Source: Puccinia triticina (taxonomy: Eukaryota; Basidiomycota; Pucciniomycetes; Pucciniales; Pucciniaceae). From it: a DNA stretch of 64,000 nucleotides. Each line of letters begins with the position of its first letter. The stretch's first letter is position 1. Below, piece by piece: positions 9,400 through 43,079 of the stretch. The translations under genes and the position numbers were made by a program. A model generated the notes under the pieces. It worked only from the letters and a program-made list of their open reading frames with translations. It did not search any database and was not told the origin of the DNA. Location of the stretch: NCBI RefSeq assembly GCF_026914185.1, contig NC_070558.1, forward strand, positions 6,643,501-6,707,500, read 5' to 3'.

Positions 9400-10048
9400 C
9401 TTGAGTATGGCCATGCTTCAAAGTCCACAGCTACGGGCCTGGTTCTCTCAAACAGCCTGATTCCAATGGCTTCCAATAACTTTTCACTCAGACCTAGCAA
9501 GATTGAGATGCTTCAACAACTCTTGGCCTGGATTTTTCCAGACCTCCCAGACTCAGCAACACTGGATGATCTCAAGAAAGAAGCTCAAAAACCCTCCTCT
9601 TTGTACATGTCCTCTGTTGGACCATGCACCTCCAGTCAGGACTCTATCAGTAGATCTCATCTTTCTCTCCTTGTAGCTCTTGTCCTCTTGTTCCTTGTCC
9701 AATACAAACACTTTCCCACTTAAATCTTCATCACCAATTGCTATAGACCTTGAAACTAACTGGAATACATGTATCTCAAAGAATTTAGACTGCAAGACCC
9801 ACCAGAGTGGGGTTTGGTTTAAAGCTGGTGGCCACCACAAACCTGTGCAAGAATACTAATCCCAGCTTTGCAAATCCACACCTCTAGAGATGGCAAAAAG
9901 GTACCTGAGCGGTGGTACCCAGCACCCACCGGCGGGTACTCATCAGGGTGGCAGGTACCGCTGCCAGGGGTGCCAAGTACAGGTACGGGTGTCTGTTTTT
10001 GTGCAATTTTTAGGCGGGTACCACCACTTGATACCCGCCAATACTGTA

Positions 10049-10545
10049 CAGTCAAACCCTTGAAACAGCATACCCCTCCGTGGAATGGATTTGGTATGCG
10101 GTACAAAAGGTTTTCTATATAACCACATAAGTATGTGGTTAGAAATACCTCCAGAACCACATAACTAATATGTGGTTTCAGGGGTATTTCCTAATAAACA
10201 TTTTTGATGAAAACCTACAAAACACATGTATATCATTGGGTTCAGGGATACTTCCTTGGCAGACCCATATGTTTACTCTGGATTTGTCTCCAAAATCATA
10301 ATTGTGTTTTGAGAGGTGCAGATTGGCATCAAAGAGGAAAACCTTGCTGATTTTGGGGGAAAAGTATGTGGTTATAGCAAAATTGTTCCTTGTTTTTGCG
10401 CCAATAGAGGTATGTGGTATGCCGTTATGTGGTATGGCCCAAAAAAGCCCAAATTTGGCCCGCACCAACTATGGTGGAATGAAAGCCCTATGTGGTATGG
10501 GAGGTTATGTGGTTTCACAAATATGCCATTTCATGGGTTTGACTG
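10049..10545. mobile_element. Tc1/mariner-like MITE, TA duplication
   Basis: Ends CAGTCAAACCCTTGAAA and TTTCATGGGTTTGACTG are inverted and flanked by TA on each side. The 497-bp interior has no transposase. It repeats short ACCACATA / TATGTGGT motifs many times in both orientations. It sits inside the left arm of the 18.8-kb composite. Confidence 0.75.
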
Positions 10546-10779
10546 TACCTTCTTTCCGCTGTGTATGTCCCCACCCTCCTTCTGGACTTGTCTCCTACAA
10601 GTCCTGTGTGATATCCCCGGCTGTGGCTCCACCAGCTGGCCATGAGAGATTCCTCTCAGAGAGCTGGTGTATGTACACATACCAGCTAGAGATGGCCCTG
10701 CCACACCCAGGTACCCACGGCTTTTTTTGGCCAAGTAGGACAACTGCACCCGCAGAGTGGGTCAGAGCGGGTACCTGCC

Positions 10780-11095
10780 CCTCAAAATTTACTGGAAGGA
10801 TTCCTTTCAGTCAAAGGTGTTACAGCTCTTTGACTGGAAGGAATCCTTCTGGTCAAAGAGTTTCTGTAACCCCTTTGACTGGCAGGAATACTTCCAGTTG
10901 AGAGGTTCTGCAACCCCTTCAACTGGAAGGGATTCCTTCTGGTCAAAGAGGTTCTGTAGCTTCTTTGAATGGAAGGAATCCCTTCAATTCAAAGGGGCTA
11001 CAGAACCTCTCGACTAGAAGGAATCCTTGCAGTTGAAGAGGTTCTGTAACCCCTTTGACTGGACGGAATCCTTCCAGTCAAGAGGTTCTGTTGTA
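10780..11095. repeat. Tandem hairpin array, TTTGACTGGAAGG family (left arm)
   Basis: About six units of roughly 46 bp. Each is an inverted repeat of the form CTTTGACTGGAAGGAATCC followed by its complement, separated by ACAGAACC/GGTTCTGT spacers that are themselves complementary. The matching array on the right arm is at 16140-16310. Confidence 0.85.
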
Positions 11096-11849
11096 AGAAT
11101 ACGGGCCAAGGGGAACCAACCCCCTCACCAAAGGCGAGGAGGATACCGCAAACCACAAAAGTGTTAAGATTTTAGCTCTACAAGTGGAGGCGACGAAAAG
11201 GGGGGGGGGGGGGGGCTATCTTGAGGGGAACAGATAGGACCAAGGAGCAGGGTTGAGGTTCTTGAGGCTCAGACTTGATTATTTTCATTTCATGTCCGAG
11301 GAGCAGACTTTAACCAAACAACTAGAGAGCCCCCCAGCAAGATCCAAAGGGGGGCCTAACAACAATAACAGGGGACAGGACAGGTGACATGAACTGGTGA
11401 CAGGGAACAGGAGACAAGTCATGGCCACTTGGCCATACAAATCAGGACAGGTGACAGGAACAGGAGGATCACTCGGTCAAACAGGACAAGACAGGATTTG
11501 ACAACTTGGTTGGATAGGAAACAGGGGCCCCTTGGCCAGACAGATAATGTGAGCGGGAGATGAAGTCAGAATTCTGACAAAAAGCTGCGGAAGATGGTAA
11601 GCAAAGAAAACCTCTATCCGCAGCCCAAGCTGCTTGCAGGGCTGGGAAAACTGAGCGCATCTCTTTGATGAATGCAGGTACTGAACATAAAAGCAGCAAG
11701 ATTGACAAAACAAGTAAACCTTGCAAATCATCATCACTGGAAAGGATCTGGACTACCACCACTGGTGAGTAATAGAGTTTTCTGACCAGCTAATTGACAA
11801 GGAAGTAGCTAATAACTCTTCCCCTAACAAGCAGGCACAAAGCCCAAAG
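11096..11849. other. Interval without a supported gene
   Basis: It holds a run of about 18 G (around 11198-11215), GGACAGG-type short direct repeats near 11370-11470, and no convincing ORF. It is interior sequence of the second TAGAGATGG element. Confidence 0.5.
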
Positions 11850-14800
11850 TAAAGAATGCACTTCACACCCGGGTACTCGCCACAAGTACGAGTATTTGCC
11901 CAAAAAATCTCAAATTCTAGATGCCCGCACCCACACCCGCACCCACGGGCACAGGAGCGGGCAAGTACGCGCGTACTTGTTGCAAGTACTCGCGGGTGCG
12001 CACAACGTTTTGCGGCAAAAGCTGTTCACCAGTCTCATTGCAGGCATGTATATTGTAACAACTATGTATTCTAAGATCTTTGACCTGATTTCTCCTTCAA
12101 TTTCTTGCTGTTGTTCCTTTTATTCAACTTCCATTTGTAAAGAAGCCCCTGCTTAATCTTACCATTTCTCGAATAAAAGGCCACTGTCATTCCTCTAGTG
12201 ACTGACCGTGCACTGAGCCTGTGCCTCCCCAAAGAGACGTAGTCCCTGCCAAAGCTAAAAGATTGCTCCACGTCCACAGTGGTTGCTGTCAAAGATGCAG
12301 GCAAATTAGTTTCAGAAAAAATTTGTAAAGAATCTAGATAATAAGATCGCACCTGGACAGCTCAGCACATCAAGTGCCATCTGGAGCAGCCCTTTGTGAG
12401 TATTACCGGCGCTTTGTTGTTGCTTCCACCATTTGAGGGGATCGACCGGCTTTCCTTCTTTGGTCAGCGCCAACCCTTCAGCGAGCCAAATTTGAAGAGG
12501 ATCGGTGAGGCTGGTTCCTCCACGGGCTTTGGAGGCCTCGATCAACCCTGCAAGGACACCTGTTGTGGGCTAGTGTACATCAAGTTAGCTTGAATGTACA
12601 AAAAACAAGAAATAACTTTTAATCACCTGAGAAGCCCGTCGACTGGGTGGCTGGCTTGTGGTTGGCTGAGTTGGAGGTTTGTAATAAGTTTCCCACATCT
12701 CGCGGGTGAGTTGAATTGCCTCGCTGATCCACTCAGGCTTCCACTTGGCTAGTTTAAAATACTCGTCTTTGAATGACGGGTGAAGAACTGCAACAAGACA
12801 ACATTTTCAGTATGGCATTTTGAGGAAAAAATACCATGAATATATATAATATCTTACCCATAGCAACTTGGTATAATGGGGAGCAGCCGGTGAGAGTGTA
12901 ATACTTATTTGTTAGCTGCAGACCTGCCCGACAGGCGTTCCTTAAGGCTGACGGGTATTTTTCTTGCTTCTCAGAAATCGCAGAAGAAAGGTGACCGGTG
13001 ATCTGGTTGATGAAGACCACAATTTCAGATATCCTAGCAGCACCGCTAGCCGAGACTTGCTGGGTGATATCGTAGAAGGGTTGAAGGACCTCCACAAGGT
13101 CTCTGGCTAAATCGAGATCGTTCTTGTTGATGTGAGAGTCGCGGGAGGGGCCATGACGTTTATCTTTCTGCCAGTCAATACTAACAAAAACTTGATCATA
13201 TTAGGTTTTTTTTTGTATTTGTTAGAAGAGAAATATATACTAACACGGCTGCCGAGCATCTTAAGATACTTTCCAATTGCAAAAGTGTTGAGTTCCACCT
13301 TGTTCTCACGTCCTGTGGAACGCTGTGTAGCTTTGAACACTTGTGTTCCTGACAGAGTTCAACAAAAAGAGCCTTGGAATTAGGGGACTTCTTTAGCTTG
13401 CAAGAAATCACTCGGAACTGATCAAACCAGTTCATACTTTAGTTCAATTGAAAAGCAAGGTAGATGAACAAGGGTGGCTGACTTTGGCAAGTGTTTCTTT
13501 GCAGGATTGGGAAGTGTATCAATCAATTTCCTCTTCATCACTCAACTCTTGGACATCCTCGTCCTCGAGTTCGATCTCTTCATCGTCAATGAGCTCTGCC
13601 GCCAGAGGGGCATTCCCAGGAGGTCCTTTGGCGACCTCAATCTCAGTTTCATTTTTGGAATTGCTAATATCTTCTGTCATCCTAGGTAGGTACGTACCAA
13701 AAGGTTTAAGATCTCAGCAATGATTAATGCCAACAGAGATTGCAACAAGAATAACATGATAGAAATACAATTGTATTTGGTCCTCTGGATCTTCAAGTTC
13801 CTCGCCATCTTCAGAGCCTTCTTCAGGGGATGTGAGTTGTGTTTTTTTCTTGTGGCTTCCAAAAGGTTGCAATATGACCTGAGCAATTAAATTTAAAATG
13901 TGAGAAAAACACCGTATCCATTGCGGTTTGCCTTTAAAACGAGGCCAACGGAAACTTCCGATCGGTCCAACCATTTTCTGGTTGTTGGTTGCGTTATCGG
14001 TTACAATCCTACAGATCTGTGAGAAAAAAAATTGAAAATGAGACCAAGACAGCTAGAAGCCGAAGAACATAAAATGAACAATGGTGCTTACCTTGTCCTT
14101 TAACCCAAACTTTTCAACAATCACCTGGATTGTTTCAGCAAGATACTCACCCGTGTGACTTTTTTCAAGTCTGACGAAGTCCAGAGGCATGGCCTCCAGA
14201 CAAACACCAGTATTGTCTCCTTCAAGTTCGACCAAGCGGTAAATTACTGTTCCTAATATGTTGAACCCGTTCGGGGACTGCCAGGCATCAAGACCTAAAT
14301 ACATTGCACCCTTGTGATTCTTGAAATAAAAGAAAGTCAGAAAAGTGAAACTGAGAAGAAGAAGAAATCAACAACCTTGAGAGATTCTATGAAAGACTCC
14401 TGCACGGCCGTGTATAATTGACCAATATCTTTGGATACTGCCCTATCTGTTGGTATATTTTGTATGACAACCGGGTGTAGAATCGCTTTGTGGGCATTTT
14501 CCCCAAGAGCTGAAAATGGGCGGGCCGTTTCTGCACACCAAATCACACAAAGCTGTGGTACCTATTGCAACATGAAAATCATTGTCATACCGGCAAAACA
14601 AGCAAGCAAAATAAGCTTTTACCTCTTGGGCATCAACATCGCCGGTGCCAGAAATACCAAGAGCTGAAAGGCTTTGAGATTTTGATTCCTTTGCCTTCTT
14701 CATGCAAGTTGCAACATGCTTGGAGAGGTTGCTGGGTGAAGTATCATAAATTGGCCGGTTGATGTTGTTGCCGCAGCTGGAAATAAACAATGTATTATGA

Positions 14801-15668
14801 AACATGAAAGGAAGGGAAAAACATTAGGTGATTTTTTGAGAAAGTACAGTTGATAAGTGAAAGAATACCTACGTTTTACACCGGTATGCAACCATTAATC
14901 GGCCATGTTTATCCTTCTGATCGGACAGTTGCGGGGGGTCGTAATAAGCATAGCAAGGACTGAGTTGATTCGCATGGACTCTCCGCGCTTTTCCTGAGGA
15001 AAAATGGATATCCAGAGAGCCTGAGGTCAGTGTTTTGATCTAATCGGTTGAGATAATGAGTTGAAGCGGACATTACTCACTCAGCTCTTGTTCATTGGTG
15101 AGTTCCTGACACTTTGAGCCTTGAGTGCTCCCAGGATTTGGATTATCTTGGTCAGTAGCCACTAATTCTTCATCAGAATGATCCATTCAAACAATTTCTC
15201 GGTTATTTCTCTTGTGCAATTGTTGCTTGGATCGAGGTTCATCCAAATTATTGAGTTCAGATATTTCTTGGGTTTCTTGGGGTCGTCTCTTGTGGGAAGG
15301 TTTATTGGATTGAGCTGGGGTACTAGAGATGGAAGAGGTGGGTGATGACTTGCGGCGCTTCTTGCTGTTCCCGTTACCTGCCATGGTGGTGATGATATGG
15401 AATGATATGTATGTAGGCTGCACCCGCGGTAAAGATGGGATAGGCACCTGGGACAGTCCGGGGGTACATGCAGCGGCACCTCTGGTTGCCCCGCGACCAA
15501 GACCAGCTCTGGCTCCGGGTATATAGCAAGTACTTGCCTGTTTTTTAGCCCAAAAACCTGGCACCCGCACCCGCACCCGGCACCCGTGGGCAAGTACTTG
15601 TTGCAGGCCCACAAGTACTCGCCCACGGGTGCCGAGTACTTGGAAAGGAGTACTTGGTGCAATCTTTA
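11850..15668 (-). mobile_element. Complete autonomous-type hAT transposon, TSD GCCCAAAG
   Basis: Termini are TAAAGAATGCAC (11850-11861) and GTGCAATCTTTA (15657-15668), 11 of 12 matching as inverted repeats and fitting the hAT end consensus YARNG. GCCCAAAG is duplicated perfectly at 11842-11849 and 15669-15676. Subterminal regions are full of GCAAGTACT and CGGGTGC motifs in both orientations, typical transposase-binding clusters. The interior is one transposase gene on the minus strand. Confidence 0.9.
12071..15186 (-). CDS. hAT-family transposase, multi-exon
   Basis: The gene can be read from ATG 15186 (MDHSDEE) through exons 15186-15081, 14993-14873, 14776-14623, 14561-14376, 14319-14092 and further exons to a stop at 12071; these phases agree. 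An N-terminal BED-type zinc finger is split by an intron (SPCYAYY, then CKTCGNNINRPIYD, then H-x4-C). Next come the hAT segments VPQLCVIWCAETARPF, MYLGLDAWQSPNGFNI, IVTDNATNNQKM and RCFSHILNLIAQ, an acidic stretch, then DVRTRWNSTLLQLE. The C-terminal dimerisation region (VDVEQSFSFGRDYVS) is clear. An in-frame TGA near 13515, between the acidic stretch and ETLAKVS, is either a nonsense mutation or a splice I did not resolve. An upstream frame from ATG 15384 also stops at TGA 15187. Confidence 0.85.
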
Positions 15669-15676
15669 GCCCAAAG

Positions 15677-16139
15677 GCAGAACCCAAGCAGCAGCAACCG
15701 TGAATCCTAAAGAGATAGCAGGAGGTGAGCAGCAGAGTTCACAAGCTAAGAAGTAGCAAGTTCAAAGGACTAACCAGCTGACTCTGATAAAACAGATAAC
15801 GTTGGCGGCCCTGACCAAACGCATAACTCAAGCTAATTAAGGCAAGAAAAGAGGAAAACCCTCAGCCCCAAGCAAGCAAGCCTTACCAACCCCAAAATGG
15901 GAGAAAGAAGCGGAGGCTGATGCCATGACTCAACGTCAACAGATCAGCCAAAACACTGCAGAACACCAACTCTTTCTCTCCTAAAAATAAACCCTAGAAG
16001 GTGGCCTCTAGTCTGCTTCTAGGTAAACTCTCACTTCATTTATCACTCACCCAAGCCTTTATGTCAAGATTTTTATAGCTTCTAGAATATTTTCTAATGA
16101 AATAAAAATTCTAGTTCCTCCAAATCTCTCATCTGTCAC
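15677..16139. other. Interval without a supported gene
   Basis: Interior sequence of the second TAGAGATGG element between the nested hAT and the right hairpin array. No ORF or structured repeat was recognised. Confidence 0.5.
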
Positions 16140-16310
16140 CCCTTTGACTGGGAGGGATTTCAAAGCAACTACAGAACCTCTTTGACCAGAAGGAATCCCT
16201 TCCAGTCAAAGAGGTTAAAAAACCTCTTGAGCCGGCAGGGATTCCTTCTGGTTGAAGAGGTTACAGAACCTCTTTGACTGGAAGGAAGGCCTTCCCAGTC
16301 CTTCTGGTTG
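16140..16310. repeat. Tandem hairpin array, TTTGACTGGAAGG family (right arm)
   Basis: Three to four units of the same inverted repeat as at 10780-11095 (CCAGAAGGAATCCCTTCCAG cores). It marks the right arm of the second TAGAGATGG element. Confidence 0.85.
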
Positions 16311-16391
16311 TTGGGGCATCCGCCACCTGCCCAAACAAGAGCAGGTACCCACTAAGAATACCCGGGTACCCGCTTGATTTCTCCCAGAAAC

Positions 16392-16520
16392 ACCGCAACA
16401 GCTACGCTACGCTATAAAAAGCGGCATTATAGCGTAGCGTAGCAATGTCACGCTATTCCTACAACCGCATAGCAAAAGCGGAGCAGGATTGTTGCTACTA
16501 TCAGCGGTAGCGTAGCGACA
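16392..16520. repeat. GCTACGCTACGC-type subterminal motif cluster
   Basis: GCTACGCTACGCTAT and ATAGCGTAGCGTAGC form an imperfect inverted pair, and AGCGGTAGCGTAGCG follows. The style matches the subterminal repeats of the element at 22493-24210. This is probably a small related insertion or remnant, but I found no clear ends. Confidence 0.45.
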
Positions 16521-16638
16521 GTCCCACTATGATAAATTGGAACAAACACGCACATGCTTGCGGGTACCCGCTGACCATGGGCGGGTACCCGCCAGTGGAT
16601 AGAAGGTACTGGCAACAGGTTTGTCGGGGCCATCTCTA

Positions 16639-16965
16639 ATACCAGATCGCCAAGAGGGATTCCTCTTGGCAAGCACTGTTATACACACACCAGCTCACCA
16701 AGAGGGATTCCTCTTGGCAAGCAGGTACATACCCATCAGATCGCCAAGAGGGATTCCTCTCAGTGAGAAGGTATAAACCCACCAGCTTGCTGAGGTGGAA
16801 TACTCTTGGCGAGCAGGTATATACACACCCAGCTTGCTGAGGGAGAATCATCTTGGCAAGCAGGTATACACACACCAGCTCGCCAAGAGGGATTCCTCTT
16901 GGCAAGCACTGGTATACACACACCAGCTTGCTGAAAGGGATCCCTTTTGGCGAGCAAGTATACAC
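16639..16965. repeat. Tandem hairpin array, CCAAGAGGGATTCCTCTTGG family
   Basis: About seven units of around 46 bp: CTCGCCAAGAGGGATTCC then its complement, with GCAGGTATACACACACCAG spacers. Fragments of the same array at 10640-10690 and 28480-28575 show that it belongs to the outer 18.8-kb element. Confidence 0.85.
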
Positions 16966-17510
16966 TAGAGATCGCCAAGTGGACCCGGGTACCCGTGGCG
17001 GGTGCGGGTGGTACCTGCGGTCATTTTGGGCATATACAGATACCCGGAGGCATCCGTAAGGCGGGTACCGGCGGTACCTGTGGCGGGTATCATGGGTACT
17101 GCCTACAATTCAACCCTCTAGCCGGTCTATGCCGGCTTCAAGGGTGGTGTAACCTCTTGATGACCAACACAGGCCGGTCATCAAGGGTGTATTTACCCTC
17201 TCGATGTCCAGCACAGAGCGGACATTGGGAGGGTGTATGTACATCTGCCCTCTTGATGTCCAGTCTGTGCTGGACACCAAGAGGGCAGACAGTCTTGATG
17301 GCACAGACGGACATTGAGAGGGGTGTGTTTACCCTACCAATGTCCGGTCTGTGCCGGTCACCAAGAGTTTACACCACCCTTGAAGCCGGTATGGACCGTC
17401 ATTGAGGGTGTATATACCCTCTCAGTGCCCGGTCTGGGGCGGATATCAAGAGGGATGTCTGCGTGTGAATTCTTGATGTCCGGTCTGGTCTGGACATCAA
17501 GAGTGTATGC
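16966..17510. mobile_element. Left end of a third TAGAGAT element with hairpin array; right end missing
   Basis: TAGAGATCGCC at 16966 is followed by a GGGTACCC/GCGGGTGC module and then an array (about 17110-17500) of TTGATGTCCGGTCTGTGC type hairpins. GTATACAC precedes it, but no matching right terminus with that flank was found, so it seems truncated. The array core is nearly the same as in the elements at 29014-29711 and 32889-34673. Confidence 0.5.
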
Positions 17511-17571
17511 CCTCTTGGTGTCTCTCTTGGTGAGCTGGTATCACTACCAAGATGGATGAATTTGCAATGTT

Positions 17572-17660
17572 TTATATTGATCAATATAGCGTATATTGAT
17601 CAATATAGCGTATATTGATCAATATAGCGTATATTGATCAATATAGCGTATATTGATCAA
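17572..17660. repeat. 19-bp tandem repeat TATATTGATCAATATAGCG
   Basis: Four to five copies form the left edge of the giant inverted-repeat element. The right edge (25365-25395) has about one copy, so the expansion is one-sided. Confidence 0.85.
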
Positions 17661-17818
17661 TTTATATTGATCTTTTTTTTTATTCCTCTTGATACCTTTG
17701 TCTGTGCTCCATGTCTCCTTAATAATCTTCTATAATATCTCTCCTTCCCCCTGTATTTGCTTCAAGCCACAGGAATCCTTTTTTTTGTCTGATAACATTC
17801 ATAAATTTCTACATACAC

Positions 17819-17924
17819 CAGGAAAAAACAATGATCACTTGCCTACAAGTGACATGAGAAAGTACAAAGGCCCCTTTTTACTTTGCTATGTCACTTGCAG
17901 AAAAGTGATGATTGTTTTTTCCTG
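17819..17924. mobile_element. hAT-like MITE of about 106 bp in the left giant arm
   Basis: CAGGAAAAAACAATGATCAC and its inverted partner ending TGTTTTTTCCTG bound it. The right giant arm lacks it and reads straight through (TACACCATTCAATTC), so it inserted after the arms formed. Flanks ACATACAC and TGATACAC suggest an eroded 8-bp duplication. Confidence 0.65.
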
Positions 17925-19653
17925 GTGATACACCATTCAATTCTTCATGAAAAAAAGACATTGCAAGTTTTAGGATTAATCCAGAGTGGCTGAGGGGTCT
18001 CGATTTTTTTTTCTTTTTTTTTACTTCAACATTTGATGTTATCAGATGTCTCCAAATCTACTTTTTTTCAAAAAAGGAAAAACATTGACCCCTGACCTCT
18101 CGCATGATACCATCCTGCAAACATTGTTAATTTGGTTGGTCAAACTTCCTGAAGATATTGCACATCATACTTGAAGTGCTACATGCATAGAAGGCCTTTT
18201 TGAAATTAGTTTACCATGGTTTAGCATATTTTTGTCAGGTTCTTTTTTTATCTGCTTTTGTTATCAACCACAAATTAATGTGGAATATTTCCACATAAAA
18301 TTTTCATCAGACAATTCTTCTGCATATAAAACCCAGAAATATTGTGTTTGGGGTCACATCCATTATGCAGCAGCTACAATCTGATCAGTTGCCAAATATC
18401 ACTACTTTGGTAGTTTCTTGGTGTTTCTGCCACTTTATCTCATCCCAGCGTGGGAATCCTTCTTCCATATGGTTACCAAAATGTTTACAAGCCTACAAAG
18501 CTTAATTATGTACCTTTAATGACCACAAAACCTACAAATGTAGCAGCTACAGTCTCATCAGTTCCCAAATATCACTATTTTGATAGTTTGTTGGTGTTTC
18601 TGCCACTATATTTCATCCCAGCGTGGGAATCATTCTGCCATATGGTTAAAAAAATGTTCAGAGACCCCCAAAGATTCATTATGTCCCTTTAATGACCACA
18701 AAACCCCCAAATTTAGAAGCTACAGTCTGATCAGTTCCCAAATATCACTAATTTGATAGTTTCTTGGTGTTTCTGCCACTATATCTCATCCCAGCGGGGG
18801 AATCCTTCTGCCATGTGGTTACCAGAATGTTGACAGGCCCCCAAAAATTCATCATGTACCTCTAATGATCACAAAACCCCCAAATGAAGAAGCTACAGTC
18901 TGATCAGTTCCCAAATATCACTATTATGATAGTTTCTTGGTGTTTCTGCCACTATATCTAATCCCAGCGTGAGAATTCTTCTGCCATATTGCTACCAATA
19001 TGTTGACAAGCTCCCAAAGTTTCATTATTTACCTTTAATGACCACAAAACCCCCAAATGTAGCAGCTACAGTCTGATCAGTTCCCAAATATTACTAATTT
19101 GGTAGTTTCTTGGTGTTTCTGCCACTATATCTCATCCCAGCGGGGGAATCCTTTTGCCATGTGGTTACCAGAATGTTTACAGGCCCCCAAAAATTCATCA
19201 TGTACCTTTAATGACCACAAAACCCCCAAATGAAGAAGCTACAGTCTGATCAGTTCCCAAATATCACTATTCTGATAGTTTCTTGGTGTTTCTGCCACTA
19301 TATCTAATCACGGCGTGAGAATTCTTCTGCCACATGGCTACCAAAATGTTGACAAGCCCCCAAATTTTCATTATTTACCTTTAATGACCACAAAACCCCC
19401 AAATGTAGCAGCTACAGTCTGATCAGTTCCCAAATATCACTACTTTGGTAGTTTCTTGGTGTTTCTGCCACTTTATCTCATCCCAGCGTGGGAATCCTTC
19501 TGCTATATGGTTTCTAAAATGTTAAAAAGTTCCCAAAGATTCATCATGTACCTTTACTGACCACAAAACCTCCAAATGGAGCAGCTACAGTCTGATCAGT
19601 TCCCAAATATCACTACTTTGGTAGTTTCTTGGTCTTTAGCCACTACATCTCAT

Positions 19654-20736
19654 CACTGCAAGAAAAACTCTAGAAACTGCATGCAGTTGAGATGCAGCAA
19701 GCTTGAATCAAGCCTCAGCTCAAGCTGGAGTCAAGCATCCCAATTCCATTCTGGTGCACCTTCATTGTGTACCTTGTTCAGCATCCCAATGCTTAACATG
19801 CTGGAGTGCTCATGCAGCAGGCTGAGACAAATTTTCAACCTTGCACATGAGCATCCCCCTGAGCACCCTTTTATTTTCTTTTATAAAACACTCCATGTGC
19901 CATTGAATCCAGCCAGAATATAACATAAAAAGGGCATGTACACATGAAGGGAATATGTACATATGAGAGGAATATGTATGCATGAAAGGGGAATGTGAGA
20001 AGGTGTATTAACACATAGAAGGGCTATGTACACATAATGAAAGGGGTATGCATGCATGAAAGGGGTATGTATTGATGAAAGGGGTATGTATGTATGAAAG
20101 AAGTATGTATGAATGAAAGGGGTATGTGCAGTAAGGGGTATTTGCACACAAAAGGGATATGTAAACATCAAAGGGGTATGTAAACCTGAATGATGAAAGG
20201 GTTGAAAAGGATGTAAAAAAGTCAAAGGGGAAATGCAAACATGAAAGGGTCATGAAAGCCTGGTGAAAAGGGTATGTACATATTGTGAAAGGGATACATG
20301 CACATGAAAGTGATACACGCAAATGAAAGGGATACACACACATAAAAGGGATACATGCACATAAAAAGGAAACATGTACATGAAAGGGATACACTCACAT
20401 GAAAGGGTTATGTGCATATAAAGGGGTATGTACACATTATGAAAGGACTGAATATATACAAAAGGAATATGTGCATATGAAAGCAATATGTGCACATGAA
20501 AGGGGTATGTGCAAATGAAAGGGGTATGTGCACATGAAAGGGGAATTTTCACATGAAAGCGGAATTTGCACAGGTATCAACTCAGTATTTTGGAGCCTGT
20601 ACTCAGTTTTTTGTACCTTAGAATCACTCTTGCATAAATTATGCAATGTGCATGGAAATTGAATCAACCAGTGCTTGATTCTTGCATGAGGCTTGCATCT
20701 CAACTGCAAGCGGTCTCCAGAGTTTTGCTTACAGTG
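19654..20736 (-). mobile_element. Non-autonomous CACTA-like element, copy 1, TSD CAT
   Basis: Ends CACTGCAAGAAAAACTCTAG and a degraded partner ending GCTTACAGTG are inverted. CAT is duplicated at 19651-19653 and 20737-20739, and the interrupted satellite resumes exactly there. The interior is a subterminal-type array of GAAAGGGGTATGTGCACATG units. The CACTG start and 3-bp duplication fit EnSpm/CACTA. Copy 2 at 31640-32826 is inverted relative to it. Confidence 0.8.
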
Positions 20737-21921
20737 CATCCTAGCGTGGGAATCCTTCTGCCATATGGTTACCAAAATGTTGATAGGCCCCCAAAGTTTC
20801 ATTATGTCCCTTTAATAACCACAAAACCCCCAAATGTAGAAGCTACAGTCTGATCAGTTCCCAAACATCGCTATTTTGGTAGTTCCTTGGTGTTTCTGCC
20901 ACTATATCTCATCCCAGCGTGGGAATCCTTCTGCCATATGGTTACCAAAATGTTGAAACGCCCCCAATGATTCATTACTTACCTTTAATGAACACAAAAC
21001 CCCCAATTGTAGAAGCTACAGTCTGATCAGTTCCCAAATATCACTACTTTGGTAGTTTCTTGGTTTTTCTGCCACTACATCTCATCCCAGCCTGGGAATC
21101 CTTCTGCCATATGGTTACAAAAATGTTGACAGGCCTCCAATGATTTATTATGTACCTTTACATGACCACAAAACCCACAATATAGCAGCTACAGTCTGAT
21201 CAGCTTCCAAATATCACTACTTTGGTAGTTCCTTGGTGTTTCTTCCACTATATCTCATTGAAGCGTGGGAATTCTTCTGCAATATTACATTTGGGGGTTT
21301 TGTGGTCATTCAAGGTACATAATGAAAATTTGGGGGCTTGTTTACATCTTGGTAACTATATGGCAGAAGAATTCCCACCCTGGGATGAGATATAGTGGCA
21401 GAAACACCAACAAACTACCAAAGTAGTGATATTTGGGAACTGATCAGACTGTAGCTGCTACTGTTGGAGGTTTTGTAGAATTCCCCGCTGGGATGAGATA
21501 TAGTGGCAGAAACACCAAGAAACTACCAAAGTAGTGATACTTGGAAACTGATCAGACTGCAGCTGCCACATTGGGGGGTTTTGTGGTCAGTAAAGGTACA
21601 TAATGAAACTTTGGGGGCTTCTCAACATTTTGGTAGCCACATGTCAGAAGAATTCTCACGCTGGGATGAGATATAGTGGCAGAAACAACAAGGAACTACC
21701 AAAGTAGTGATATTTGGGAACTGATCAGACTGTAGCTGCTACATTTGGGGGTTTTGTGGTCAGTAAAATTACATTATGAACTTTTGGGGGCTTGTAGACA
21801 TTTTTACAACCATATGGCAGAAGGATTCCCACGCTGGGATGAGATATAGTGGCAGAAAGACCAAGAAACTACCAAAGTAGTGATATTTGGGAACTGATCA
21901 GACTGTAGCTATGGCAGAAGA

Positions 21922-22252
21922 GGTAAGGACTTGGAATGAGTACTTCACTAAGACGGCTCAAGGGGAGTGCAACGGCGGGCACAAGGCCAAAAAGAGTTCC
22001 AGCTCCAATGGGTTGGGGGATAGATTTCTAGCATCAACAGAGAAGTCATCTGATGACTCTCTCTGTTAGTATCTATCTACAATTGAGAAATTAAAAGGAA
22101 GGAACTCTTACCTAGCATCAACAGAGAAGTCGTCCAATGATTTTCTGCCTAGCTAGGTAAAGGAAAGGAAGAGCTATTTCTAGGGCGGAGGACGGGACCG
22201 GCACAGGGGCTGTGATACTTTTGTGAAGTCCGTGCAAGGCGCGGGCTTTACG
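21922..22252. mobile_element. Unclassified 331-bp insertion in the satellite
   Basis: GAAGA stands on both sides (21917-21921 and 22253-22257) and satellite sequence resumes after it, suggesting a 5-bp duplication. Inside, TAGCATCAACAGAGAAGTC occurs twice. It ends in a GC-rich stretch (GGCGCGGGCTTTACG). No TG..CA ends, TIR or poly(A) was seen, so the class is unknown. Confidence 0.45.
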
Positions 22253-22492
22253 GAAGAATTCCCACACTGGGATGAGATATAGTGGCAGAAACACCAAGAA
22301 GCTACCAAAGTAGTGATATTTGGGAACTGATCAGACTGTAGCTTCTACATTTGGGGGTTTTGTGGTCATTAAGGGTACATAATGAATCTTTGGGGGCCTG
22401 TAAACATTTTGGTAACCATATGGCAGAAGGATTCCCACGCTGGGGTGAGATATAGTGGCAGAAAGACCAAGAAACTACCTAAGTATAGATAT

Positions 22493-24210
22493 CAAGGCTG
22501 AAACGCTGCGCTGCAATACAAAATAAGCAGTCTTTTAGCGCAGCGCAGCGGGGAACCCCTGCGCGGTCAGCCCAAAAAGCGGTAGCGCAGCGCCAGTCCC
22601 GCTGCGCTACCGCTGAAAATAGCGGGGGCCCTCTTTTTCCCCGACCCAAATAGCGGTAGCGCAGCGGACAGTGTGGTATGCTTTATGGTTCAGCCATCTA
22701 GCCCATTTCAAAATTTTCCATTTTCTCATATGTACACTCACAAATCAACCAATACGGCAACACCATTGGATTCTACGGCCAAAACTACACAGGACACCAT
22801 GGACAACACACCTTACGTCCCTCTGGATCAGAAGATACACCCCCTTCAAGACACCATTGGCCAGTTTCACGCACACAAACACCATACTCAGATCATGTAA
22901 TCCGTTACATGAACCACCCTTACCCAGGACCATGTAATCTGTTACATGGTCCACTCTGACACTTGTCTACCCTTTACATATGCTTTACCTCATCAGCTGC
23001 ACTCATTACATTGTCTTATGCAGGCTTATGCAGTCTTATGCAGTCTTATGCAGTCTTATGCAGTCTTATGCAGTCTTATGCAGGCTGCATGCAGACTAGT
23101 GTAATAGGGGCTGCAGTTCATGCAGGTGTCAAGCTAGCAAAAACCCCTCAGTTGACAGCTCAGGCTAGCTAAATTCCCTTGTATGACATCATTTGACAGC
23201 AGGTGACAGACAGGGGCAGTACAGATGATCAGATGACCCAATGACATCATACGTCAATGACATCATAGTCACCTCCATTTTCTCACCAGCTAAATTCCCT
23301 CATCACTACATCATGTGACCTGTCAATCAGGCTAAATTCCCTCATCTAGGCTGTACCACCAGCCAAGATCCCTCATTTGACAGCTCAGGGCAGCTAAAAT
23401 CCCTCATTCCCTGGTTCCCCTGGAGCTAAAATCCCTCACTCTTTTCTACTTAAGGAGGCTTTCCTCCCCCCAGTTGTAATTTCTCTCAGCAAACTACTTG
23501 CACTCAGCTTACCCCATAACAGTACATCAAATTGCTCACTCTACAGTATTAGCCCCCACTATATTGTGATTTTACCCTTATTACATAACAATTACATACA
23601 TACAACAACACTGTTGATCGCTCAATCATCATCAACCCCGGGCTCTGTCAGGGTGTTCCACAACCTCTTTGCGGCAACACACAACTCACTCAGCACCGGT
23701 TACATCACCCATATCCCCTAAGCCACTTGTTCAACGTAGGCTATCTTTTGATACACCTCCACTATCACTACATAAACCTTCCAATCGTAGATTGGGGGGC
23801 TTGTTTTAGTGTCTAATGACCCAGGAAAGGCAGAGGTAACCTGATTCATCCCTTTCCGCACTCAGCAAAAGGTTCTCAGGAACACTTTTGAGCTTCACAA
23901 CGGGGCCGCTCCTTTCAGCGCCGCGCAGCGGCCACCAAAACAGCTGCGCTTTGCGCTGCGCTGCGCTTTTTAGGCTGCCAGCGGGGGAGCGCTACGCGGC
24001 CAGGTCAAAAAGAGGTAGCGCAGCAATGGTTCCCCTGCGCTACCGCTGAAAGTAGCGGGTTCCTGCTTCTTGCCAGACCCAAAAAGCGGTAGCGCAGCGG
24101 GCGGGGCCGCTACTTTCAGCGCAGCGGGCTGGGCCGCTACTTTCAGCGCAGCGCAGCAGCCACCAAAACCGCTGCGCTGCGCTTTTTGAAGTGCAGCGCT
24201 TTCACCCTTG
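22493..24210. mobile_element. hAT-like element with GCGCAGCG subterminal repeats
   Basis: CAAGGCTGAAACGCTGC and GCAGCGCTTTCACCCTTG are inverted ends. The satellite breaks at ..GATAT and resumes at GTGATAT, a duplication of about 7-8 bp. Both subterminal zones (22493-22670, 23900-24205) are dense in GCGGTAGCGCAGCG and its complement. The middle (about 22680-23870) is LTR-like, with TATA-like CTACTTAAGGAGG near 23450, and may be a further insertion. No transposase frame was seen. Confidence 0.6.
23027..23085 (+). repeat. 10-bp tandem repeat TCTTATGCAG, about six copies
   Basis: Perfect or near-perfect copies of TCTTATGCAG are visible directly in the sequence. It lies in the LTR-like interior of the element at 22493-24210. 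Confidence 0.9.
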
Positions 24211-25395
24211 GTGATATTTGGGAACTGATCAGACTGTAGCTGCTACATTTGGGGGCTTTGTGGTTGGTAAAGGTACATAATGAAACTTTGGGGGCTTGTA
24301 AACATTTTGGTAACCATATAGTAGAAGTATTCTCACACTGGGATGAGATATAGTGGCAGAAACACCAAGAAACTACCAAAGTAGTGATATTTGGGAACTG
24401 ATCGCACTGTAGCTGCTACATTTGGGGGTTTTGTTGTCATTAAAGGTACATAATGAATCATTGGGGGCCTGTTAACATTTTGGTAACCATATGGCAGAAG
24501 GATTCCCACTCTGGGATGAGATATAGTGGCAGAAACACCAAGAAACTACCAAAGTAGTCATATTCTGGAACTGATCAGACTGTAGCTTCTACATTTGGGG
24601 GTTTTGTGGTCATTAAAGGTACATAATGAATCATTGGGGGCCTGTTAACATTTTGGTAACCATATGGCAGAAGGATTCCCACACTGGGATGAGATATAGT
24701 GGTACAAACACCAAGAAACTACCAAAGTAGTGATATTTGGGAACTGATCAGATTGTAGCTGCTGCATAATGGATGTGACCCCAAACACAATATTTCTGGG
24801 TTTTATATGCAGAAGAATTGTCTGATGAAAATTTTATGTGGAAATATTCCTCATTAATCTGTGGTTGATAACAAAAGCAGATAAAAAAAGAACCTGACAA
24901 AAATATGCTAAACCATGGTAAACTAATTTCAAAAAGGCCTTCTATGCATGTAGCACTTCAAGTATGATGTGCAATATCTTCGGGGAGTTCAACCAAACAA
25001 ATTAACAATGTTTGCAGGATGGTATCATGAGAGAGGTCAGGTGTCAATGTTTTTCCATTTTTGAAAAAAAAGTAGATTTGGAGACTTCTGATAAGATCAA
25101 TTTTTGAAGTAAAAAAAAAGAAAAAAAAAACTTTGAGACCCCTCAGCCACCCTGGATTAATCCTAAAACTTGCAATGTCTTTTTTTTCATGAAGAATTGA
25201 ATGGTGTATGTAGAAATTTATGAATGTTTTCAGGCAAAAAAAAAAAAAAAGGATTCCTGTGGCTTGAAGCTAACACAGGGGGAAGGAGAGAGATTATAGA
25301 AGAGTATTAAGGAGACATGGAACACAGACAAAGGTATCAAGAGGAATAAAAAAAAATGATCAATATAAATTGATCAATATAAGCTATATTGATCC

Positions 25396-26048
25396 AAGTT
25401 TATTAAATCCACAGAATCATGGAAGGCAAGATCATGGGTTTTGCCTATGTTCATTAGCAAAAGACATATTACAGGTTGAAAATAATCCCCAAATACCCCG
25501 GGGGGCACCTCGGATTGACCCTCCAGCTTGTGCTGCAGCAACAAGCAAAAGTGGGCCGGTCAAATTGGATTTCAAGGAGGGCCTAATCAATTGATTAGGG
25601 CAGCTCCAGGGAGGGGGTAGGACGGAACCGGATCCCCTGGGGAGAAACACACCTCCCCCTCCCCTCTTAAATAGACGCCGGGTTGCCACCCAACTCTTGT
25701 CAGACGTGTTGCAAACGCCCCCACCCAAGCCTTGTTGTCAACTACAATGGTCTTGTTGCACGCAACCTATCCAGATCAAACTCGGCCATATTTGGACCCT
25801 TCCCCCTCGCCTCGTCTTCCTACATATTCCCCTGAATTGCACCCTATTGCGCCCTGACCGGAAACTTTATTTTCATAGGTCGCGAATCGCGATAGTTGCA
25901 AAGACATCACAACCCAGCTAGCCCTTTGCCTCGTTGTCATCTTCAACACTCTCTGCCCATCGACCTCAACATCAGGTAAGACCAGCCCTAATGGTCAACA
26001 AGCAGCACTTCCTCAGCAGCACGAGCACGTGCACGAGCACGAGCAGCA
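25396..26048 (+). promoter_or_regulatory. Upstream region of the MTR4-like gene
   Basis: Sequence before the helicase ATG is C/T-rich with short ORFs only. There is a palindrome CTAATCAATTGATTAG at about 25583-25598. Transcription start elements cannot be assigned. Confidence 0.35.
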
Positions 26049-27974
26049 ATGGAACCAACCCAGGAGAAGACTAACAGCAAGAAACGGCTGCAACCAACAA
26101 CCATTCCGACCCAGCCGACCAGCTCATCTCCGAAACGGACGCGGGTCAGCTCACCATCAGATCAGATGCAGTCCGAAGACCGCACCAAGATCCCAAGCCA
26201 ACAGCCAGTGCTAGTAGCGGACGAATTCCAGACAGACGCTGCCCGACAGATCGATGCCAGTAGCGGACTCCTGCCCGAGCAGTCGGGCTCAGGAGAAGAG
26301 AAGCCCCAACAACTCACCCTCTCCCACCAAGTTCGTCACCAAGTAGCCCTCCCACCCAACTACAACTACATCCCTATCTCAGCCCATCGCCCCCCAAGTA
26401 AACCAGCTAGGACATATCCCTTCACACTCGACCCTTTCCAACAAGTCTCGACCACTTCAATCCAACGTAACGAGAGCGTACTCGTCTCAGCCCATACTAG
26501 CGCTGGGAAGACCGTTGTTGCCGAGTATGCTATCGCTCAATGTCTCGAAAACAAACAGAGAGTCATCTACACTTCTCCTATCAAGGTCCGCCATCTTTCT
26601 TCCCTCTTAATCATTTTCTCCCATTGCTTGAAATTCATCTTGTTTTGTAGGCTCTTAGTAATCAAAAGTATCGAGAATTGATGGCCGAGTTTGGGGACGT
26701 GGGTTTGATGACCGGGGACGTGACAATCAACCCAAGTGCATCATGTCTAGTCATGACAACAGAGGTCAGCACAAAGCGCACCCTCAGACGAACCAAATAA
26801 GCTAGAAAAAATGCACCGGTTTATCCTGATTATTGCGTCCTTCTGTTACTCATCCAAAACAGATTTTACGGTCGATGTTGTATCGTGGCTCAGAAGTAAT
26901 GAGAGAAGTGGCTTGGGTCATCTTTGACGAAATTCATTATATGCGCGATAAGGGTAATCAGCCATCCCTCTTCTCGTTCAACTTGGGCCAAATCATGCCC
27001 CAAAGATCACTCTTCTCTCCACCGGCATTCAAGAAAGTTAATCTATGTTCGGGGTTTTTTATGTCATATCAGAAAGAGGAGTCGTTTGGGAGGAGACCAT
27101 CATTCTATTGCCCCACTCGGTTCGATATGTATTTCTATCGGCAACAATACCTAACGCGATGCAGTTTGCCGAATGGATTTGCCATACCCACGATCAACCT
27201 TGTCATGTGGTTTACACCAATTTCCGACCAACCCCACTACAGCACTATTTATTCCCATCTGGCGGCGACGGAATCCATTTGGTCGTCGACGAGAAGGGCG
27301 TATTTCGAGAGGATAACTTCTTAAAAGCAATGGGATCCTTGAATGATTCGAGAGGCGAAGATCCTGCGAGCTCGATGTCCGGTCGAAACAAGCAGGGCAA
27401 GACTAAGAAAGGCGGTAACTCGACCAAAGGCCCCTCCGATATTTACAAGATCATCAAGATGATCATGGTCAAGAACTATAATCCGGTCATCGTCTTCGCA
27501 TTTTCGAAGAGAGAGTGTGAGGCACTAGCAATCCAGATGTCCAAGTTAGAATTCAACTCCGAAGAAGAGAAGGAAACCGTCGACACGGTTTTCAAGAACG
27601 CGATCTCCAACTTGTCTGAAGACGATCAAGGCTTGCCACAGATCAACCACATCTTGCCACTTTTGAAACGGGGGATTGGAATCCATCACGGTGGTCTACT
27701 GCCGATCCTCAAGGAGGTCATCGAGATCTTGTTCCAAGAAGGGCTGATTAAAGTCTTATTTGCCACGGAAACCTTCTCGATCGGCTTAAACATGCCCGCC
27801 AAGACCGTTGTCTTCACTACCGTCCGTAAGTTTGATGGGAAAGACTTCAGGAGTTTGAGCTCGGGTGAATACATCCAAATGTCTGGCCGAGCTGGTCGTC
27901 GAGGGTCTCAGTTTTTTCATTCTTTATCATTCCTGTCACATGCAATACTGTTCTCTGTAATTTTCTCTCCTTAG
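26049..27974 (+). pseudogene. MTR4-type Ski2-like RNA helicase, truncated after motif VI
   Basis: Exons 26049-26585, 26651-26764, 26863-26953 and 27073 onward splice in phase. The product matches MTR4, the exosome-associated TRAMP helicase: [12 protein letters not shown], Walker [30 protein letters not shown] box ([12 protein letters not shown]), [44 protein letters not shown] and [10 protein letters not shown]. Similarity stops right after RAGRRG at about 27904. The expected winged-helix, arch/KOW and C-terminal helical domains (roughly half of a normal protein of about 1,000 aa) are not in the following sequence or anywhere downstream in the window. The frame runs on to a stop at 27974. Two donors are GTCCGC and GTCAGC, so GTCTCA at 27905 could also have been a donor. 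The copy lies inside the 18.8-kb composite element. A full-length MTR4 is expected elsewhere, since the gene is essential in yeast. Confidence 0.85.
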
Positions 27975-28479
27975 TTTGAGAAATAGTAAAGATTCTGAGA
28001 AATTTGCGCAAAATTGGAAAATTTTCACACTTTTCATATTTTTCAATTTCATTTTTTTTCTGTCATAATCATTCTTGGGAACTTACTTTCCACCCCTGTA
28101 GCCAAATCCATGAATTCAGGTCTGTTGCCTGAGCTTCTGTAATGAAAAATGCAGTGCCAAAAAGATTAGATGACCCACTGTACATGAAATCCTGCTACCA
28201 ACCAATCAAGTCCACCAAAAACTGATTGGGTGTCAAAAGAGTTTACATTATGACCTTATGTCCCTTGCCATATATCAATGACAAACATGCATTAATCATC
28301 AACACTTGCATAAAATTAATCAAACATTGCCCTTCCTATCACCTTTGTCTGTCCCCCAACTCAAATTTTCCTCCAAAAGAATAGCTTGGTCTTAGTGTTA
28401 AAATCCCTGCAGCGGCGGAGCCGCCTTGGCCTCTAGTCAATATGCAACATCGCAAATTCATCCATCTTGGTAGTGTATG
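27975..28479. other. Interval without a supported gene
   Basis: AT-rich sequence follows the helicase break. At about 28441-28475 a segment (GCAAATTCATCCATCTTGGT) is the inverse of 17541-17570, showing both are inner ends of the composite element's arms. Confidence 0.6.
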
Positions 28480-28575
28480 TGTATACTTGCTCACCAAGAC
28501 AAATCCCCTCTTGGCAGCAGGTATACTGACACCAGCTCACCAGGCCCAAGAGGGATCCCTCTTGGCAAGCAGGCA
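28480..28575. repeat. Right-arm remnant of the CCAAGAGGGAT hairpin array
   Basis: Two degraded hairpin units (CACCAAGACAAATCCCCTCTTGG and GCCCAAGAGGGATCCC..). They match the array at 16639-16965 and lie 130 bp inside the right terminus of the composite. Confidence 0.75.
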
Positions 28576-29013
28576 CATATCTACAAATATAAAAAACTTG
28601 GTGGGTCCCGGCGGTACCCACCAGAAATACCCGGGTGCCAACTACGGGTACAGGTATCTGTTTTGGGCCAAAAAAGCAGGTGGTAAACGGGTACCAATTG
28701 CCATCTCTACACACCTCTGTTGAGGTTTTGTCCTCTGTGGAATTTTCTGCCTCCTCTCCCATCTTCTTCTCTGATCCTTTTACCCATGATCAAAATTGTC
28801 AAACACTCATTAATCCCCTCAAATAGTTTTGTCTCTTGGTCTTGGTCATGATATTATCTTACTAATCTTGTAGAATTTGATCCCTGATTAGAATAGTCTG
28901 TGTCTTTCCTAGTCTATTGGCTTATATTGTTGTGTGTGCGTTCTTTTCTGGTGACAGATGTTTTACCCTGTGAAATTTCTCTCAGAAGTTCTATATTCTT
29001 CCTTTTATTTTTT

Positions 29014-41215: not shown

Positions 41216-42521
41216 TCATGTGGCATTGTTTTTCGATAGCTTAAAAAGCATTTTATGGAATTCCCTTGATACTACATGCAGTTTGTCCCACACCAAGTCG
41301 TAAACTGTCTGGATTTGATTGAGCTTAACCATCCGACAACAGAGCTGATGCAAACGGCACACTACTTGAAGGACATTGGCACGGAACCAATGATCAGATG
41401 CCAGTAAAGGGAGCTTCAGTTGTGCAAATGAGCCTTCGAGTGAATGCATTCCCCACTCCGCGGCCTGGCAAGCTGAAACCACCTGTTTGTTCAGAAGCTT
41501 GAGTTGTGCGTACAATTGTGGTGTCAAAGGAAGGCAATCACCTCTTTTTGCCGGAGCCAGTATGCGGCTTTGGAGCCGTTTGGACTTGCGAGGGAACGCC
41601 GTATCACTCAAGATACAAAATCCCGTTGGCGCATTGTGGAGGAGCTTGTCATAAAGAGGGCCTGTGATAGCCGAATCATGCCACAATCCGGGTGCGTTTG
41701 GGATAGCGTACATTATGGTTCCATCTGGAGCAAACGCCAGGATGCAACTGCAATAGTGTGAACATGTCCACCCATTGTAGTATGCATTCTGAACACTTTG
41801 TCCAAAAAAAAAGAAATGAGATCAATAGAGGCCGGAAGAAAAAACTGAAGCAAAAACTCTCACTTACTCATCATTATCAGACACTAGCACCGGCAAGTTC
41901 AAGCCATCAAAAAATCCAAAACAGCCTTTGAGGAGTGGAAATTTCTTCTTGATAGTCTGCAAAAGGCTGGATGGTATCCAAGGTTGATGGCCAGGTGATC
42001 CGTGCATTTTGGAGACTCTTGAGTACCTCAAGCAAAATTTGAATACCACACAAGAGATAACGAGAGCAGACAGCCGGGGTTAAGGAGAAAATTTGCTGGA
42101 GGGTTTACGCCGCCATTGTCGAGCTCAACCAATGCAAAACCAATCCCAGACACCCAGCAGCATCACACGCCACCCAACCTGAGGCTCACCGTTTGGATTC
42201 ACGTCCGCTCTTGGAATTGTTTCCTCAGTCCAGCGGAATGAGAAAGGTCCCAGGATCTAGCAAAAGGTCCTGACGTCAAGGTTGTTGTTATAAAAGCTCG
42301 GTTGTTTTTCCGGCGGTACATCCACACCCACGCACTGTCCACGAGTGGGTCCCCCGCTAGATCACCACGAGTGAGGTATGTCCTTAAGCGTTGCATTGGA
42401 CCGCCCCCGCACCCCAAGGCCATGAAGAGAAGAATGGCTTCCTCTGCTTCCCGGTTTTCACAAACCCGTAGCTGCTGGAATTGACGCCAAATCAGATGTT
42501 GTTTTTGGTCTTTAGAGTTGT
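41216..42521 (-). CDS. PIF/Harbinger DDE transposase, probably interrupted
   Basis: ATG at 42521 (MDNSKDQKQHLIWRQFQQLR) begins an N-terminal helical region. The catalytic core follows in pieces: GCFGFFDGLNLPVLVSDNDE (first Asp), an intron with GTAAGT donor near 41870, NAYYNGWTCSHYCSCILAF, YAIPNAPGLWHDSAITG, ILSDTAFPRKSKR (second Asp) and EWGMHSLEGSFAQLKLPL (Glu). These are the D-D-E positions of the Harbinger family. Between the N-terminal exon and the core (about 42060-42240) the frames are broken, and I did not find a clean splice. The stop is at 41216. Confidence 0.7.
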
Positions 42522-42974
42522 CCATCAAAAATCCAAGTACACGTTGATTGAGTTGTCTCCAGAGCTGAAAAGCCGGAGTTGATCTTATGACAAAGTGATA
42601 TGTTTGGCACCAGCAGCCTGGGTACATACATATATGGGGATGTAGAATAAATCTGAGGGGTGCGGGCAACAGGAAAGGAGATCTGGCAAGATGTGGGTGG
42701 AACTCTGGAATCTGGAGATATCTGACTCTGGAAGGCCTTCCAGATTGATGGGAAGTCCTCCATTTATTGGTCTGTTTTGACATTCTCCAGAGTCTTCCAA
42801 TACAGATTCATATGTGAATTCAAGCAAGAGGCAGGGTCATACTTACATTTGGCATGACAACCTTAAGCCTAGCTTAGATGCCTTGTCCCAGTTAGCCACC
42901 TCCATGCAGAGCCATCACTCAAGACTGCTAAGGCACAAAAGAACAATGCTGACCTTTGAAATACTAAAAAGGAT

Positions 42975-43079
42975 TGGTCAATGTGGGGATCGAACCCACG
43001 ACCTTGGCATGACATTGCAGCGGACCCTGTGAGCCTACTGGGTATTAGTACCACGCTCTACCGACTAAGCTAATCGACC
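42975..43079 (-). tRNA. tRNA-Ile(AAU), 32-nt intron
   Basis: All arms pair. The acceptor is GGTCGAT/ATTGACC with A73, the D arm GCTT..GAGC, the anticodon stem TGGTA/TGCCA with loop CTAATAA (anticodon AAT, read as IAU), and the T arm GTGGG-TTCGATC-CCCAC. The intron (CCCAGTAGG..AATGTC) sits between positions 37 and 38, the canonical eukaryotic place. CCA is not encoded, as expected for a nuclear gene. One G-T pair is in the acceptor stem. Confidence 0.95.

Follow-up and report, generated by a model that had tools for sequence, protein, structure and literature searches.

The stretch of Puccinia triticina DNA analyzed here (the window, 64,000 bp, C1:6643501–6707500) contains an 18.8-kb composite of nested transposable elements that encloses the 5′ half of the gene for the exosome RNA helicase MTR4 (Table 1). 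The preliminary description of the locus had proposed gene capture by a giant non-autonomous hAT element. The MTR4 fragment between the hAT ends is real: it carries the Pfam DEAD and Helicase_C domains and matches a native gene on contig C13 at 1890 of 1925 positions, all three introns of the stretch included. Gene capture also stands as a conclusion, but the carrier of the fragment is very probably a Helitron and not the hAT element.

Table 1. Elements, gene parts and duplications of the composite, in window coordinates (ORF, open reading frame).
Feature	Positions	Strand	Remarks
Left target duplication of outer hAT, CACACCTC	9877..9884	+	abuts TAGAGATGGC end at 9885
Left arm of outer hAT	9885..10686	+	two parts (9885–10046 and 10548–10686) split by TA-flanked element
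Nested element, presumably Tc1/mariner-like, CAGTCAAACCC...GGGTTTGACTG	10049..10545	+	TA at 10047–10048 and 10546–10547
Second hAT-type element with TAGAGATGGC termini	10687..16638	-	5.95 kb; duplication ATACCAGC/ATACCAGA (7/8)
Hairpin array of outer hAT	16639..16965	+	alignment with siblings
Piece of another repeated family, near-hAT end starting TAGAGATCGC	16966..17522	+	genome repeats
Non-autonomous CACTA-like element	17542..28475	.	TAT at 17539–17541 and 28476–28478
Nested CACTG...CAGTG element	19654..20736	.	CAT duplication; within CACTA-like element
Non-autonomous Helitron, 3,044 bp	25393..28436	+	TCCAAGTTTATTAAA 5′ end; GCGGCGGAGCCGC and CTTGGCCTCTAG 3′ end; between A25392 and T28437
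Captured MTR4 fragment (5′ half, three introns)	25991..27904	+	exons 26049–26585, 26651–26764, 26863–26953, 27073–27904
Chimeric ORF, introns removed	26049..27974	+	547 amino acids and stop; last 22 residues from Helitron
Remaining palindromic-repeat arm	27904..28185	+	contains 3′ capture junction
Right arm of outer hAT	28479..28709	+	alignment with siblings
Right target duplication of outer hAT, CACACCTC	28710..28717	+	abuts TAGAGATGGC end at 28709

The Helitron was delimited by comparison of its copies. A search of the genome (122.8 Mb in 18 contigs) with window positions 25400–28450 gave at least 61 matching pieces (best 40 of 1,114 candidates scored), and five of those listed were full-length matches at 99–100%: the window itself, C16:2964963, C1:7034446, C11:4371497 and C10:4461779. 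The stretch common to all five copies is exactly 25393–28436. Pairwise differences among these loaded Helitrons amount to 0.10–0.23%; the four other copies are 99.8–99.9% identical, and the one on C10 additionally lacks 10 bp. Both the 5′ TC and the 3′ CTAG, which fit the 5′-TC and 3′-CTRR termini of Helitrons, are present in the five loaded copies and in two relatives without MTR4. Furthermore, all seven elements are preceded by A and followed by T, without a target duplication. These seven were located without requiring the A and T; 19 C1 elements chosen by patterns that included the A and T were not counted. Genome-wide, there are 825 exact 5′ ends preceded by A and 871 exact 3′ ends followed by T (0 and 0 in reversed-pattern controls). 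A hairpin (GCGGC-GGA-GCCGC) lies 12 nt before the 3′ end, within the 10–12 nt typical of Helitrons. The family is abundant in this genome, and a published annotation assigns 2.6% of a P. triticina haplotype A to Helitrons (PMC12210899).

The window copy splits TTGATCAA close to where the CACTA-like element ends, and its two flanks, joined side by side, give an uninterrupted CACTA-like end. The flanks of the four other copies (3,000 bp on the left; 2,500, 1,452, 1,498 and 1,280 bp on the right) had no blastn match to hAT or CACTA sequence at 1e-5. Thus, none of these four copies places the helicase piece between the same hAT arms, an arrangement that the preliminary description had suggested searching for. 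Because the Helitron splits the CACTA-like end and the fetched flanks of its other copies are free of hAT and CACTA matches, MTR4 arrived with the Helitron, later than the CACTA-like element, as a passenger in the latest of three insertions (hAT, CACTA-like, Helitron).

Donor gene and route of capture

Among the matches listed from the same search, C13:159016–160938 aligns with window positions 25991–27904 only. The C13 gene runs past the breakpoint into ORFs with the MTR4 stalk and DSHCT domains and is likely complete. Since the longer version of MTR4 is found on a different contig, the piece in the window is a captured copy; the same gene led us to reject a native MTR4 interrupted in place. 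A retrocopy origin was also rejected on account of the three retained introns. Consistent with capture, the fragment has a host-gene donor elsewhere and is missing from two relatives of its carrier.

The two MTR4-free relatives, C1:3326998 (5,561 bp) and one on C2 (16,369 bp), have the same Helitron ends and flanking A and T. The C2 relative is enlarged by what we take to be copia-type retrotransposons. Both relatives flank the insert point on either side, which makes MTR4 an internal insert: between position 598 and the palindrome arm they carry other DNA where the loaded Helitron has MTR4. Read by eye, the 5′ junction (CAGCCCTA|ATGGTC) has 0 bp of microhomology and the 3′ junction (CGAGG|GTCTCAG) has 1 bp, a single shared G. 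In the C2 relative, positions 15434–16118 form a palindrome with 87% identity to its own complement, and the point equivalent to the 3′ junction (element position 15836) is about 60 bp from the center. Within the C1 relative, a stretch at C1:3327595–3329517 matches C18:3962853–3963530 at 80–82% and may stem from an earlier capture at a different locus; a Pfam scan of the ORFs of one MTR4-free relative gave nothing informative. The C2 relative encodes a catalogued product, PtA15_2A619 [Puccinia triticina].

The arrangement of insert and palindrome suggests how a non-autonomous Helitron of this abundant family gained the 5′ half of MTR4 as an internal insert. A break at or near the palindrome would have been repaired with filler copied from the MTR4 locus; this is the most likely route, with about even chances against other internal routes. 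Loading could instead have proceeded by end bypass, that is, by read-through of the 3′ end into a neighboring MTR4 gene. This route has been reported for a bat Helitron, as summarized in the portion of PMC5148889 consulted, and the introns were retained in the fragment, as expected of genomic DNA. However, the new 3′ end that end bypass predicts was not seen, the window copy has a single exact 3′ end, and over the 533 bp that follow the insert it is 95–97% identical to the 3′ parts of the relatives, indicating that the original 3′ end has been kept. We regard end bypass as unlikely and favor internal filling.

The machinery of the family and the frequency of capture were surveyed more broadly. 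The genome has at least 150 matches to Helitron_like_N (150 of 200 candidates scored), and no Rep/helicase lies inside the loaded Helitron. We also scanned 83 proteins, comprising 82 ORFs of at least 105 amino acids from 19 further C1 elements with exact paired ends (766–4,034 bp) and the window MTR4 ORF as positive control. The control matched Helicase_C, and one ORF gave Shugoshin_C below its cut-off. Capture as a family-wide habit was unsupported in this small sample of 19 C1 elements, which leaves about 830 or more ends outside it and was scanned by a method blind to short exons and fast-evolving genes.

The chimeric reading frame

The captured exons open into Helitron sequence. The resulting ORF starts with the ATG at 26049 and comprises 524 whole MTR4 codons, the last of them encoding GRAGRR, followed by a G whose codon spans the junction and by 22 other residues. 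A protein search identified PTTG_11808 from P. triticina 1-1 BBBD Race 1 (547 amino acids, 8 cluster members), which differs from the window product at residue 439 alone (K, versus N in the window). The four other Helitron copies have K at this residue too. The chimeric Helitron product is thus catalogued in race 1 as a hypothetical gene. PTTG_11808 was unmentioned in the literature searched.

The coding state of the captured exons could be read as a sign of selection for a truncated MTR4, reduced to the helicase core, with a role in the fungus. The catalogue entry in race 1 is in line with such a role, as is the open frame, which runs without a stop across the 524 codons in all four copies readable by the exon model (the C10 frame falls outside this reading as its change at 26953 lies in the model's search motif). 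Captured and native codons also differ by 12 silent and 5 amino acid-changing substitutions, a low ratio (~0.12) that departs from neutrality (p 3.4e-5). The window copy alone accounts for 1 of the 12 silent changes and for the last step at codon 439. Yet the low ratio fits equally well a capture from a diverged functional allele, in which the constraint predates the capture. Among the five copies, moreover, 7 of the 13 single-base variants are coding, and 4 of these change an amino acid and 3 are silent. Three of the five changes relative to the native gene, at residues 63, 135 and 439, strike positions identical in the MTR4 proteins of P. graminis, P. striiformis and P. coronata, and the C10 change alters the last base of an exon. 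Maintenance by selection is, on balance, improbable. The simplest account would be capture from a somewhat diverged functional allele followed by drift.

A bolder scenario has a self-spreading, transcribed half MTR4 (the helicase domains to GRAGRRG, without the stalk and DSHCT), captured at the palindrome center through hairpin breakage, tune or interfere with MTR4 and the exosome. We give this scenario little credence. A cellular role of the chimeric product is possible but unsupported.

The enclosing hAT and CACTA-like layers

The outer element has the hallmarks of hAT transposons: terminal inverted repeats (TIRs), an 8-bp target duplication and related copies. Both the inverted TAGAGATGGC ends and the exact CACACCTC duplication at their junctions, noted in the preliminary description, are present. 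Exact TAGAGATGGC copies number five in the window, at 9885(+), 10687(+), 16629(-), 28700(-) and 37758(-), against a chance mean of 0.11 (five were reached by 0 of 100 shuffles). CACACCTC occurs 7 times against 1.95 expected and is thus not rare by itself; its weight lies in flanking a single TIR pair on both sides. We fetched three sibling loci (on C7, C9 and C16), and two of them retain both ends: the C16 sibling (951 bp), whose 8-bp duplication is exact, and the C9 sibling (962 bp), with a duplication matching at 6 of 8 positions. The C7 sibling has the right end only. The arms and the hairpin array of the siblings align with their window counterparts. The siblings lack positions ~10047–10541, 10688–16638 and 16966 to about 28475–28500. 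Because the two-ended siblings are without these nested stretches, the outer hAT is an element of about 1 kb rather than a giant, inflated to 18.8 kb by nested insertions. Its siblings are too short for a transposase of their own, and its TIRs and 8-bp duplication liken it to the hAT-derived miniature inverted-repeat transposable elements (MITEs).

Several elements occupy this hAT. The preliminary description had mentioned neither the second hAT pair at 10687/16638, nor the CACTA ends and TAT duplication of its "giant inverted-repeat element" (the CACTA-like element), nor the Helitron ends of the MTR4 piece. The second hAT-type element sits within the hairpin array of the outer element. Its minus-strand ORFs, which presumably derive from an intron-split hAT transposase, gave nothing above cut-off in a Pfam scan. 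The family represented at 16966–17522 has at least 196 matching pieces in the genome (best 40 of 994 candidates scored), and no right end of this piece was found in the window.

The CACTA-like element was inserted in the same hairpin array with its TAT duplication. It has CACTACCAAGATGG inverted at both ends and 173-bp tandem repeats inside, and it resembles CACTA-type MITE-like elements in its CACTA ends, 3-bp duplication and internal repeats. Its arm has at least 80 matching pieces in the genome (best 40 of 758 candidates scored), some of them inverted pairs a few kb apart. By eye, GCGCAGCG-rich sequence at 22490–24210 breaks up the 173-bp repeats and is probably a further insertion. Another left end of the CACTG...CAGTG type lies at 31640. 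Of the two histories offered in the preliminary description for the MTR4 fragment and the inverted-repeat element, that they rode inside the hAT or joined it later, only the later arrival stands, since both are nested insertions.

hAT-type elements can capture genes, and matching TIRs with an exact 8-bp duplication do enclose the fragment, but that a very large non-autonomous hAT captured and moves it is barely credible given two-ended siblings of just 951–962 bp, no hAT or CACTA in the fetched flanks of any of the four other MTR4 copies, a left-junction 18-mer that is single in the genome, Helitron ends on the fragment itself, and the failure to find the expected combination of a fragment between hAT ends, repeated copies and no other carrier.

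The nesting implies that the hAT, the CACTA-like element and the Helitron were inserted in this order. We propose that, after acquiring MTR4, the loaded Helitron multiplied by rolling-circle transposition and came to occupy at least five A^T sites; the copies and their sites are observed, and the enzyme is presumed. One loaded copy landed in a CACTA-like element already inside a ~1-kb hAT, generating the 18.8-kb composite. Four points weigh against this account. The capture route depends on junctions read by eye and on one palindrome. The 3′ hairpin has a stem of only 5 bp, and its folding is ordinary (z -0.22; 76 of 200 shuffles as good). The search for a Rep/helicase partner sharing these ends found none: each of the five Helitron_like_N matches on C1 is more than 10 kb from the listed exact 5′ ends, which were the only ones covered and are a minority of those in the genome. 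Finally, the relatives differ by 3–8% from the loaded Helitron in the shared parts, and the direct progenitor was not seen among them. Even so, we are highly confident in the account as a whole, from capture by the Helitron through its spread to its landing in the CACTA-in-hAT nest.

Elsewhere in the window, minus-strand ORFs at 41216–42807 may encode a Harbinger-type transposase and one at 50840–51715 a mitochondrial aconitase. An Rfam scan gave one tRNA match (42975–43079), and a scan for bacterial-type promoters and terminators gave nothing informative.

Relation to known Helitrons

Helitrons of maize and bats are known to capture genes and are mentioned in PMC5148889 and PMC4289320. The P. 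triticina element resembles them in being non-autonomous, in its 5′-TC, 3′ hairpin and CTAG, in its A^T insertion and in carrying an intron-bearing gene fragment in several copies. It differs in its fungal host, in being a single case among the elements examined and in having an internal insert with the old 3′ end kept. Gene capture by a Helitron is a known kind of event, and the MTR4 case is new. In the literature searched, which covered few subscription papers, none of the listed titles and abstract openings dealt with a captured MTR4 or with a rust Helitron that had taken up a gene.

Among fungal Helitrons, Helitron-N1_AN of Aspergillus nidulans also has a host gene fragment as cargo (cited in the part of PMC4289320 consulted). 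HELPO of Pleurotus likewise inserts between A and T and has a CT[A/T]G end, but its intact elements are without host fragments, unlike the MTR4-bearing Helitron, as far as the same portion of PMC4289320 states. FoHeli of Fusarium shares the fungal host and differs in its non-canonical termini, and the Fusarium survey listed 27 putative captures with no important role found, in the sections of PMC5148889 available. In these portions, the two fungal surveys (PMC4289320, PMC5148889) report the capture of host fragments as uncommon or unimportant, and the MTR4 case contrasts with them. It also differs from these fungal Helitrons in that a single genome holds the donor, relatives free of the insert and all five copies. 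The hAT and CACTA MITE-like elements of the window, on the other hand, merely provided the landing ground, and neither captured the gene.

The locus illustrates how nested transposons can mimic one giant gene-capturing element. It also bears on annotation: PTTG_11808, catalogued in P. triticina, matches transposon cargo in sequence, so that such cargo is counted as a host gene. With the donor, the insert, its junctions, insert-free relatives and five copies in one chromosome-scale genome, comparing sequences is enough to test how the capture took place.

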